From: Bacteroidota bacterium
Lineage (GTDB): Bacteria > Bacteroidota > Bacteroidia > NS11-12g > UBA955
Assembly: GCA_024103355.1 (NCBI GenBank)
Contig: JAGFIU010000033.1
Span: 1 to 34,518, forward strand
DNA: 34,518 nucleotides
Direction: 5' to 3'
This document shows positions 6,773 through 10,186 of the stretch, one piece after another. A model generated the notes under the pieces. The model saw nothing but the letters and a program-made list of their open reading frames with translations, was not told where the DNA came from and searched no databases. Each line of letters starts with the position of its first letter. Within the stretch, counting starts at the first letter, position 1. A program made the position numbers and the translations under genes.

Positions 6773-7066
6773 TTAAACAAATTGACGGATAATTTTTTCT
6801 AATTCATGTGCCGGAACCACTCCTGATTGCCTCCATTTCATCTCTCCCTTTTTGAAAATAATGAGTGTAGGAACTCCTTGAATTTGAAGTGCCGCTGCTG
6901 CATTAGGATTCTTGTCCACATCAATTTTAATTATTGAAGCACTATCCCCTATTTGTTTTTTGAGGTCATCTAAGATAGGAGCCATCATTTTGCATGGTCC
7001 GCACCATTCGGCAGAGAAGTCAATAAGTACAGGCTTATCTTGGTTAATTATTTCCTGAAATGTCAT
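6773..7066 (-). CDS. trxA: Thioredoxin
   Basis: A single thioredoxin domain of 97 residues with the classical redox site WCGPC at 21-25 (Cys22, Cys25) and the cis-proline segment GVPTL near 63-67. There is no signal peptide, so it acts in the cytoplasm as a disulfide reductase. It is the last gene of the eight-gene operon and overlaps the end of the DUF6132 gene by 23 bases. Because it sits with a rhodanese, two methyltransferases and a CxxCH lipoprotein, it is probably a dedicated reductant for that system rather than the only housekeeping thioredoxin. That specialisation is inference. Confidence 0.93.
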
Positions 7067-8150: not shown

Positions 8151-8753
8151 TCACTTTTTTCTTGCATATAAACTAACTATGCTTGACTCGCCACGCAAGA
8201 TTATTCCTTCATTCATTTTCAAAATATTTTCTTCAGCTTTCAAAACTTCAAAATTTGCAAAATCACTTTTAAGTTGTTCAAGGTCGTAATAGAGTGGATT
8301 AGGAGTTTTAAAATCTTTATTATCAAGGCTTTTACCATTCCCAAAACCTTGCAAAATCAGCAATCCTCCTTGTTTAACATAAGATGCTAATTTCTGATGG
8401 TAAGCTGTTCTTTTTTCGGGTATAAAATGGGCAAAAATCAAAGCCAACACATCAAAATCTTCCGATTCAAAGTCCAATTGTTCAATATCTCCAACACAAT
8501 AATCAATTTTCACTCCGGCTTTTTGAGCCAAAACCTCTGCTTTTTGTTTTGCTGCTTCACTCAAATCAAAAGCACTGACATTCCATCCCAAACCGGCTGC
8601 AAAAACAGCATTTCGTCCTTCTCCTTCGGCAGGCAGCAGAATCTTACCTGTGTTAAGTGATTTCAGTTTCTCTTTCAAGAAAAGATTGGGACTTTCACCA
8701 AACATATAGACCTCTGAGGCATAAAGATTATCCCAATATTCCTGATTGAACAT
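8151..8753 (-). CDS. Class I SAM-dependent methyltransferase (TehB/thiol-methyltransferase-like), copy 1
   Basis: A 200-residue Rossmann-fold methyltransferase. The N-terminal WDNLYASEVYMFGESPN is followed by motif I, ILLPAEGEGRN (38-48). Next come an acidic SAM-ribose region (VSAFDLS), CVGDIEQLDF and DVLALIFAHF. The substitution of GEGRN for the usual G-x-G-x-G, and the FG-E-PN start, are shared with small methyltransferases of the tellurite/thiopurine-resistance type that methylate soft nucleophiles (S, Se, Te). The substrate is not shown by sequence. It is a clear paralogue of the next gene, eight bases away, so the pair arose by tandem duplication. It is likely cytosolic. Confidence 0.85.
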   Translation of the reverse strand: MFNQEYWDNLYASEVYMFGESPNLFLKEKLKSLNTGKILLPAEGEGRNAVFAAGLGWNVSAFDLSEAAKQKAEVLAQKAGVKIDYCVGDIEQLDFESEDFDVLALIFAHFIPEKRTAYHQKLASYVKQGGLLILQGFGNGKSLDNKDFKTPNPLYYDLEQLKSDFANFEVLKAEENILKMNEGIILRGESSIVSLYARKK

Positions 8754-8761
8754 GAATCAGT

Positions 8762-9382
8762 TTACTTTTTAACGGCAAAAATTCTCACAAGATTTGACCT
8801 CCCCACATGGAAGTCACCTTCACTCAATTCATCTATGATTTCTGAAATCTCAATAAAATCAAAATCTTCAAAATCATTTTTAAAATCCTCTAAAGAAAAG
8901 AGCATGTCAACATCCTTGGGGCCACCTGCTTTTGGGTTTTGGAGTTGATTTTCAACATGTTTTTTTTCAAACCCTTCCAAAATCAAATAACCTCCTTTTT
9001 TAACATATCCACTCAAGGTCCTGTGTAATTCTTTTCTGATTGATGAGGGAAAGTGAGCAAAAATCAAGGCTAAAGCATCGAAGGACTCAGCAGGATAAGC
9101 AATGTTTTCAATGTCAGAAATCACATAATCTATTTTGGCATTGTGTCTTTTTGCTAAATTTTCTGCTTTCTTTTTTCCTTCTATACTTTGGTCAAAGGCA
9201 TGCACTTCCCAACCAAGAGTAGCAGCATACACAGCGTTTCTACCCTCGCCCTCACACGGTAATAGAATCTTTCCGGATTTAATACTGCCTAATTTTGATT
9301 TAAAATATCGGTTAGGCGTTTCTCCATAAACATAAGCAACCTGACCAAATCGTTCATCCCAAAAGGCACTGCTACCGGTCAT
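8762..9382 (-). CDS. Class I SAM-dependent methyltransferase (TehB/thiol-methyltransferase-like), copy 2
   Basis: A 206-residue paralogue of the preceding methyltransferase. It shares FWDERFGQ-Y-YGETPN at the N-terminus, ILLPCEGEGRNAVYAATLGW (39-58), the VISDIENI acidic strand and DALALIFAHF. The C-terminal thirds have diverged most (KKGGYLILEGFEKKHVENQ against QGGLLILQGFGNGKS), which suggests different substrates. Its ATG shares one base with the stop of the rhodanese gene (TAATG), linking sulfur transfer and methylation in one translational unit. As for copy 1, activity on thiols or chalcogen anions is an inference from family resemblance and context. Confidence 0.85.
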   Translation of the reverse strand: MTGSSAFWDERFGQVAYVYGETPNRYFKSKLGSIKSGKILLPCEGEGRNAVYAATLGWEVHAFDQSIEGKKKAENLAKRHNAKIDYVISDIENIAYPAESFDALALIFAHFPSSIRKELHRTLSGYVKKGGYLILEGFEKKHVENQLQNPKAGGPKDVDMLFSLEDFKNDFEDFDFIEISEIIDELSEGDFHVGRSNLVRIFAVKK

Positions 9383-9711
9383 TATTGTTCACTTTTGATT
9401 TCATTAACAATGGCATCCACATTATACCAAGAGCCACCATTAAAGATGTTAGTAATTCCTTGTTGTTCAAGATAGCTTTTTGCCTGTGTGCATCTGCCTC
9501 CACTTTGACAGAAAAGAACAATATTTTTCTTCCCTTTAAACTTTGCAACTTTAGCAGGTATAGTGTCCAAAGGAATATTGACTGAACCTTTTACGCTACC
9601 TCCTGAATATTCTCCCGGTGTACGAACGTCAACCAAAAATGCACCGTCCTTGATTATTTCTTTTAACTGTTCATTGTCTGCACCGAATAATGATTTAAAA
9701 ATTCCAAACAT
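9382..9711 (-). CDS. Rhodanese-like sulfurtransferase
   Basis: A single rhodanese domain of 109 residues. It has the CH2A-like segment FLVDVRTPGEYSGGSVKGSV (25-44) and an active-site loop CQSGGR at 68-73, where Cys68 would carry the persulfide. An additional Cys74 (GGRC) immediately follows. There is no signal peptide, so it is cytoplasmic. Single-domain rhodaneses of this kind carry sulfane sulfur to thiols or other acceptors. It lies 19 bases after the DUF302 gene and overlaps the first methyltransferase by one base, so it belongs to the operon. Substrate is unknown. Confidence 0.93.
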   Translation of the reverse strand: MFGIFKSLFGADNEQLKEIIKDGAFLVDVRTPGEYSGGSVKGSVNIPLDTIPAKVAKFKGKKNIVLFCQSGGRCTQAKSYLEQQGITNIFNGGSWYNVDAIVNEIKSEQ

Positions 9712-9730: not shown

Positions 9731-10117
9731 TTAAAGATTGTTGATTACTAATTTTAATTTTTCTCTCACCTGAGTTGCAATATCTCCCAACCCATCATTC
9801 TTAACTGCCATCATGGATGCAACAGGATCTATGGCACTCACTTTTACTTTTCCTGCTTCTGATTCTTGTACAATAACATTGCATGGCAGCATGGTTCCAA
9901 TTTCGTCTTCAGCTGACAAGGCCTTGTGTGCAAAAACAGGATTGCAAGCACCCAAAATGACATACTTTCTAAAATCCACATCTATTTTTTTCTTGAGTGT
10001 GTCCTTGATGTCTATTTCGGAAATGACACCAAAACCCTCCTTTTTTAGTTCATCTTTTACATGTGACACTGCTCCTTCAAAGTCAGAATTTACGATTTTA
10101 GAAAATGTATAGCTCAT
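9731..10117 (-). CDS. DUF302 family protein
   Basis: The 128-residue protein is a complete DUF302 domain. It shows the family pattern FRKYVILGACNPVFAHKALS followed by E-x-x-IG-x-MLPCNVIVQE, with two conserved Cys (in LGACNP and in LPCNV). DUF302 proteins are small alpha/beta proteins often found beside rhodaneses, redox proteins and metal-stress genes; biochemical function is not established. It is the first gene of the minus-strand operon, about 25 bases after a -7 element and downstream of a 5-4-5 palindrome. The conserved Cys pair would suit binding of a soft metal, heme or sulfur species, but that is inference. Confidence 0.9.
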   Translation of the reverse strand: MSYTFSKIVNSDFEGAVSHVKDELKKEGFGVISEIDIKDTLKKKIDVDFRKYVILGACNPVFAHKALSAEDEIGTMLPCNVIVQESEAGKVKVSAIDPVASMMAVKNDGLGDIATQVREKLKLVINNL

Positions 10118-10141
10118 AATTGTATAGTGATTAAAACGGGT

Positions 10142-10186
10142 GCAAAACTAATTCTAGTGTTTTTACAACTTGGTAACTTTGGTTAC
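10142..10186 (-). promoter_or_regulatory. Operon promoter: -7 element with an Fnr-like 5-4-5 palindrome in place of the -33 box
   Basis: Minus-strand TAGTTTTGC at 10150-10142 is a good -7 element. At the -33 position (about 10173-10170) the sequence is CCAA, not TTTG. Instead a perfect palindrome GTAAC-TTTG-GTTAC spans 10173-10186, centred at 10179.5. With a start site near 10139 this is about -40, the position of class II activators. The 5-4-5 layout equals that of Fnr-type boxes, although the half-sites differ. The regulator itself is not in this window. Confidence 0.5.

Follow-up and report, generated by a model that had tools for sequence, protein, structure and literature searches.

In Escherichia coli, class II promoters that depend on CRP or FNR carry a palindrome centred at -41.5, from which the activator adjoins the core promoter. 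With regard to sulfide and persulfide, the known regulators are of other families, BigR/SqrR being ArsR proteins, CstR a CsoR protein and FisR a sigma-54 regulator. A literature search that left most subscription journals outside its coverage returned no Crp/Fnr sulfide regulon of Bacteroidota. On the other hand, the HcpR2/HcpR regulon of Bacteroides, Thermotogales and clostridia was described in a 2005 comparative study, which gives GTAACnnnnGTTAC as the HcpR2 consensus for hcp, ties this GTAAC-type motif to loss of Glu-181 and describes HcpR2 with Pro at 181 (PMC1274295). As the regulator of hcp, HcpR2 detects NO through heme.

Promoter and operon in the window

The window, that is, the whole stretch of 34,518 nucleotides that was analysed, contains an operon on the minus strand with the following features.

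10173..10186, minus: putative operator GTAAC-N4-GTTAC, centre 10179.5 (-41.5), supported by sequence and by conservation in 13/15 Bacteroidota DUF302 promoters
10151..10172, minus: 22-bp spacer, length kept and sequence variable; gap 22 in 77/111 phylum pairs
10143..10150, minus: -7 element TAGTTTTG, fitting TAnnTTTG; predicted +1 at 10138
9731..10117, minus: DUF302 gene, first of the operon (PF03625, E 4e-26)
9382..9711, minus: rhodanese (PF00581, E 7e-16); homologues in 33/125 regulon loci
8762..9382, minus: TehB-like SAM methyltransferase A (PF13649, PF03848)
8151..8753, minus: TehB-like SAM methyltransferase B (PF13649, PF03848), 36-37% to L017 and L021
7870..8154, minus: small Cys-rich membrane protein, weak sub-cut-off DUF308 match; homologues in L118, L188 and L234
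7262..7873, minus: Tll0287-like protein with CxxCH motif (PF11845, E 2e-16)
6773..7066, minus: thioredoxin (PF00085, E 3e-28), 71% to L118, preceded by a 196-bp gap

As the earlier note had claimed, a perfect palindrome GTAAC-TTTG-GTTAC lies upstream of the -7 element, at 10173-10186 on the minus strand and 22 bp 5' of TAGTTTTG. Along this strand, GTAACCAAAGTTAC (10186-10173) is followed by 22 bases, TAGTTTTG (10150-10143), 25 bases and the ATG of the DUF302 gene at 10117. When the -7 element is numbered from T-12 to G-5, as for Flavobacterium johnsoniae in PMC6847099, the palindrome spans -48 to -35 from an inferred start site at 10138. The class II position proposed in the note holds, the centre coming to -41.5 by this numbering rather than "near -40". 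The wording that the palindrome "replaces" the -33 box was loose, as the palindrome ends at -35 and the -33 motif is weak in F. johnsoniae anyway, according to the same source (PMC6847099), which also reports G at -10 to be rare among F. johnsoniae promoters. The window element has G at -10, as do 8 of the 77 sites with the same gap found in the phylum (below), and no clear base preference is seen at -33 across these 77.

The operator is two-fold symmetric in the 5-4-5 form, perfect and conserved; the -7 numbering and the fixed gap of 22 place its centre at -41.5 relative to the predicted start; and TAGTTTTG fits the -7 element TAnnTTTG of Bacteroidota primary-sigma promoters. This arrangement is like that of the E. 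coli class II promoters in the position of the palindrome, with the activator expected beside the core promoter, but differs from them in having TAnnTTTG at -7 instead of TATAAT at -10, and in its half-site GTAAC. Judged from such features, a conserved class II Crp/Fnr-type operator is well supported as the kind of site.

Homologues of all seven gene types of the operon occur among 125 regulon loci searched by tblastn, for example in L118 for the rhodanese (61%) and the thioredoxin, the latter probably marking the end of the operon. In L017 and L021 the regulator gene is followed by methyltransferases, to which methyltransferase A shows 46-47%, and a Tll0287-like homologue in L046 lies directly behind a gap-22 site.

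Conservation and spacing of the palindrome

As sequence alone, the palindrome is weak evidence, and the case rests on position and conservation. Shuffling the window 100 times gave a match in 41 cases when up to one mismatch was allowed, and the 2.3-Mb genome of the window holds 2 perfect palindromes versus 14 per strand for a reversed control pattern. The second perfect copy (L002:571-584, G000:C30) is part of the coding sequence of an OmpA-like protein and is probably due to chance. Among sites in this genome, that of the window alone has at most one mismatch; at up to two mismatches there was no excess over the reversed control, either in this genome or in 11 genomes of the family.

The DUF302 gene is present in 2 of 59 sampled family genomes, namely that of the window and one congener, which retains both palindrome and gap. 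A scan of the species-genome collection gave 16 further DUF302 loci, 13 of them from Bacteroidota, making 15 Bacteroidota promoters with the window and the congener and excluding the non-Bacteroidota loci L201-L203. Of these 15, 13 have a gap of exactly 22 bp between a palindrome carrying 0-2 mismatches and nAnnTTTG, versus 2 loci for the next best gap and 3 for the best of 59 permuted half-sites. The exceptions are L189, which is apparently mid-operon, and L200. At up to one mismatch per element, none of the three non-Bacteroidota loci has the site. According to the note, absence of the palindrome upstream of orthologous operons would have refuted the proposal, which passed this test at unchanged spacing; position and conservation support the expectation that a Crp/Fnr-family class II site would turn on this operon. 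The frequent matches in shuffled windows and the lack of enrichment of perfect copies would suit a chance match without any role, but a spacing kept in 13 of 15 orthologous promoters despite diverged spacers makes such a coincidence scarcely credible.

For the phylum, we scanned 392 Bacteroidota genomes at least 90% complete for GTAACNNNNGTTAC with TANNTTTG 14-30 bases downstream. The pair was found in 58 genomes and 111 times in all, including a second match in the genome of the window (plus strand, gap 19): 77 pairs had gap 22, 10 had gap 23, 4 had gap 21 and the others were scattered. Only 7/77 gap-22 sites fell inside open frames of at least 150 codons, versus 16/34 at other gaps, and the median gap-22 site stands 21 bases before an ORF, so that these sites look mostly intergenic.

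Genes behind the sites

Pfam families were tallied for the genes directly behind gap-22 sites, 76 in number because one of the 77 sites had no ORF; one protein may count in several families. Rhodanese was found 23 times, OEP (TolC type) 17, Lactamase_B 16, TauE 6, Sulfate_transp (SulP) 3, Tll0287 3, and Pyr_redox_2, DUF302 and DUF983 2 each, while cytochrome bd, Prismane, Sulf_transp, YgaP-like TM, OsmC and others appeared once each. Judged by these domains, sulfur genes make up most of the gap-22 targets. The Lactamase_B targets may be read as persulfide dioxygenases; that of L015 joins metallo-beta-lactamase and rhodanese domains in one protein and matches the model of the bifunctional sulfur transferase/dioxygenase Blh, far below the model cut-off. 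Such targets recall those of BigR/SqrR, CstR and FisR, which likewise include rhodanese, persulfide dioxygenase, TauE, a YgaP-like TM protein and SQR. However, BigR/SqrR and CstR are repressors of unrelated families, in contrast to the Crp/Fnr-type activator geometry seen here.

Of the 34 sites at other gaps, 25 had an ORF and gave Rhodanese 2, cytochrome bd 2, TauE 1, Sulfate_transp 1 and Prismane 1. Gaps 21 and 23 are probably also functional, because the sulfur-gene targets among these 25 sit at one or the other.

Some targets deserve mention in their own right. The 17 TolC-type outer membrane efflux proteins (L055, L056, L064, L068, L072 and others) are followed by efflux partner genes in the loci read and speak against a sulfur regulon, as do other gap-22 targets not obviously related to sulfur; HMA genes are among the targets as well. 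At L123:7087, L248 and L251, sites with gaps of 22, 21 and 23 precede genes for cytochrome bd oxidase, a type of enzyme known to resist sulfide. Moreover, a 36-kb region of one genome (L118-L119, G327:C1:2648000-2684000) has seven gap-22 sites, with one palindrome serving both directions, together with a regulator gene of the R-V-V type (below) and Lactamase_B, rhodanese, TauE, SQR-like and YeeE-like genes. This region is a sulfur island.

With regard to HcpR2, the motif GTAACnnnnGTTAC of its regulon is indeed found at the window, and the noncanonical half-site pointed out in the note does differ from TTGAT/ATCAA, but it was already on record as the HcpR2 consensus in PMC1274295. This identity, together with hcp genes that follow a site in G296 (gap 22) and in G288 (gap 23), might suggest that an HcpR2 orthologue binds the site and that the operon answers nitric oxide, as hcp does in Bacteroides. 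Such an assignment is very unlikely: the genome of the window gave 0 Prismane matches (control genomes match in 5/14), Prismane accounts for 1 of the 76 gap-22 targets versus 23 for Rhodanese, and the regulators adjoining sites in relatives are of the R-V-V type, whereas the 2005 study gives Pro at 181 for HcpR2. No such Pro was found in the four cNMP-domain proteins of this genome, which read V, E, E and E, and no hcp-linked regulator was found next to L043 and L243 in the stretches searched. We rejected the HcpR2/nitrosative reading for the window operon because its genome lacks hcp. The nitrosative response suggested earlier suits few of the targets, as hcp is behind 1 of 76 gap-22 and 1 of 25 other-gap sites, and the redox response survives only in the broad sense that the targets indicate reactive sulfur species. 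The system of the window is like HcpR2 in its consensus, in a candidate regulator of the Crp/Fnr superfamily and in a non-Glu residue at 181, and unlike it in the absence of hcp, the sulfur targets, Val at 181 and a conserved cysteine.

Candidate regulator and its signal

The genome of the window encodes four proteins with a cNMP-type domain, three of them with a Crp-type HTH. One, L005, is a Crp/Fnr protein of 227 aa (G000:C36:16153-16833) with the recognition helix R-V-V-V-S-R. Its phmmer alignment to E. coli CAP gave R180=R, E181=V and R185=R. Position 181, read by eye, is Glu in the remaining three, leaving L005 as the sole Crp/Fnr protein of the genome with a non-Glu residue there. L006, a truncated cNMP-domain protein without an HTH_Crp_2 match, and L010, a 218-aa protein with an HTH match but without a sensor domain, were set aside as candidates.

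Among ten loci of L005 relatives in the family (L015-L024), nine have a near-palindrome at gap 22 with at most one mismatch per element; they hold 12 gap-22 sites in all, against an average of 0.25 for the 60 permutations of the half-site, GTAAC among them. As a rule, these sites immediately follow the regulator gene, and their targets are Lactamase_B-rhodanese, YgaP-like, TauE, DUF6132, HMA, rhodanese or methyltransferase genes. The regulator loci of the window genome and the congener (L013 and L014) were excluded from the ten and scanned separately, and neither has a site near the regulator gene. Taken together, L005 is, by strong inference from these comparisons, the most likely activator at the site in its own genome.

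To follow this type of regulator through the phylum, we used a DNA pattern for the helix R-V-V-[VI]-S-R-L-L-K, hereafter RVV, which matched in 46/392 genomes. A first pattern, A-R-V-V-[VI]-S-R (30/392 genomes), was too narrow, as flavobacterial regulators read S-R-V-V; the broader one was chosen after viewing neighbourhoods and is partly post hoc. It matched in 22/41 gap-22 genomes versus 24/351 others (Fisher 1e-12, kinship ignored), and within the class in 22/40 versus 8/65 (p 4e-6, kinship likewise ignored). Of the 45 sites in RVV-pattern genomes, 17 are within 10 kb of the regulator. Among the 19 gap-22 genomes missed by the pattern, 13 have an RVV regulator whose flanking residues deviate slightly from it, four (G157, G212, G220 and G446) gave only Glu-181 regulators, and G288 and G296, both with hcp behind a site, gave none. 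The Fisher test uses pattern matches alone, and the follow-up total of 35/41 is not comparable with 24/351, which had no such follow-up in site-less genomes.

As an observation on the recognition code, one DUF302 promoter in a Bacteroidia MAG (L188:5900-6001) carries, at gap 22, the variant GTGAC-N4-GTCAC, for which a Glu-181 regulator would be expected to have a preference, and offers a natural case for its study.

The predicted fold of the L005 type is Crp/Fnr-like (model pLDDT 79). In cAMP receptor protein, Glu72 and Arg82 contact cAMP. The cAMP-contact stretch GELGL...ERSA is not conserved in the phmmer alignment of L005 to CAP; the Crp fold is shared. C95 is the only invariant cysteine in 16 aligned RVV regulators, and a cysteine occupies its place in 30/30 pattern-matched loci read (25 by strict motif, 5 by eye). 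Its value as a specific RVV marker was weakened, since Glu-181 paralogues carry a cysteine too, and persulfide sensing through C95 is a guess.

It is rather unlikely that the class II Crp-type site serves another Crp/Fnr protein (L003, L004 or the truncated L006) or another signal, such as oxygen, peroxide, metals or cyanide. The four cNMP-domain proteins, the 4/41 gap-22 genomes with only Glu-181 regulators, and the TolC-type efflux and HMA genes among the targets would be consistent with such an arrangement, but L005 alone is without Glu-181, RVV regulator genes adjoin sites, and sulfur genes predominate among the targets.

Taken as a whole, a class II Crp-type operator, an L005-type activator and a reactive-sulfur regulon are probably the best explanation. 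Site, spacing and conservation, and the association with sulfur genes and the RVV regulator subfamily, are results of computation. We infer that a dimer of the activator, most likely L005 in this genome, would bind GTAAC-N4-GTTAC centred at -41.5, recruit RNA polymerase with the Bacteroidota primary sigma to a TAnnTTTG promoter without a clear -33 element and so activate the operon. The DUF302-rhodanese-methyltransferase-thioredoxin operon would represent, in this genome, a reactive-sulfur regulon that extends across the phylum and comprises persulfide-dioxygenase-like enzymes, rhodaneses, TauE/SulP/YeeE transporters, SQR-like enzymes and cytochrome bd. The signal may be sulfide or persulfide, perhaps via C95, as the targets and the cysteine suggest.

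More generally, it is possible rather than probable that Bacteroidota use a dedicated Crp/Fnr-type subfamily of activators, with the R-V-V-[VI]-S-R helix and the conserved sensor-domain cysteine, as sulfide/persulfide sensors for a phylum-wide regulon whose class II promoters keep a strict spacing, a task that falls to ArsR, CsoR or sigma-54 regulators in other phyla. The half-site is already known from HcpR2, but the regulon and the regulator subfamily found here are different and oriented to sulfur. Because a second regulator group shares the HcpR2 consensus, GTAACnnnnGTTAC alone is no proof of nitrosative stress and should not be read as such. If our reading is true, a widespread phylum would be seen to respond to reactive sulfur through a defined operator in a fixed promoter geometry, with a candidate for the regulator, and thereby the uncharacterised genes behind the site (DUF302, DUF6132, the small membrane proteins and the TehB-like methyltransferases) would gain a testable role.
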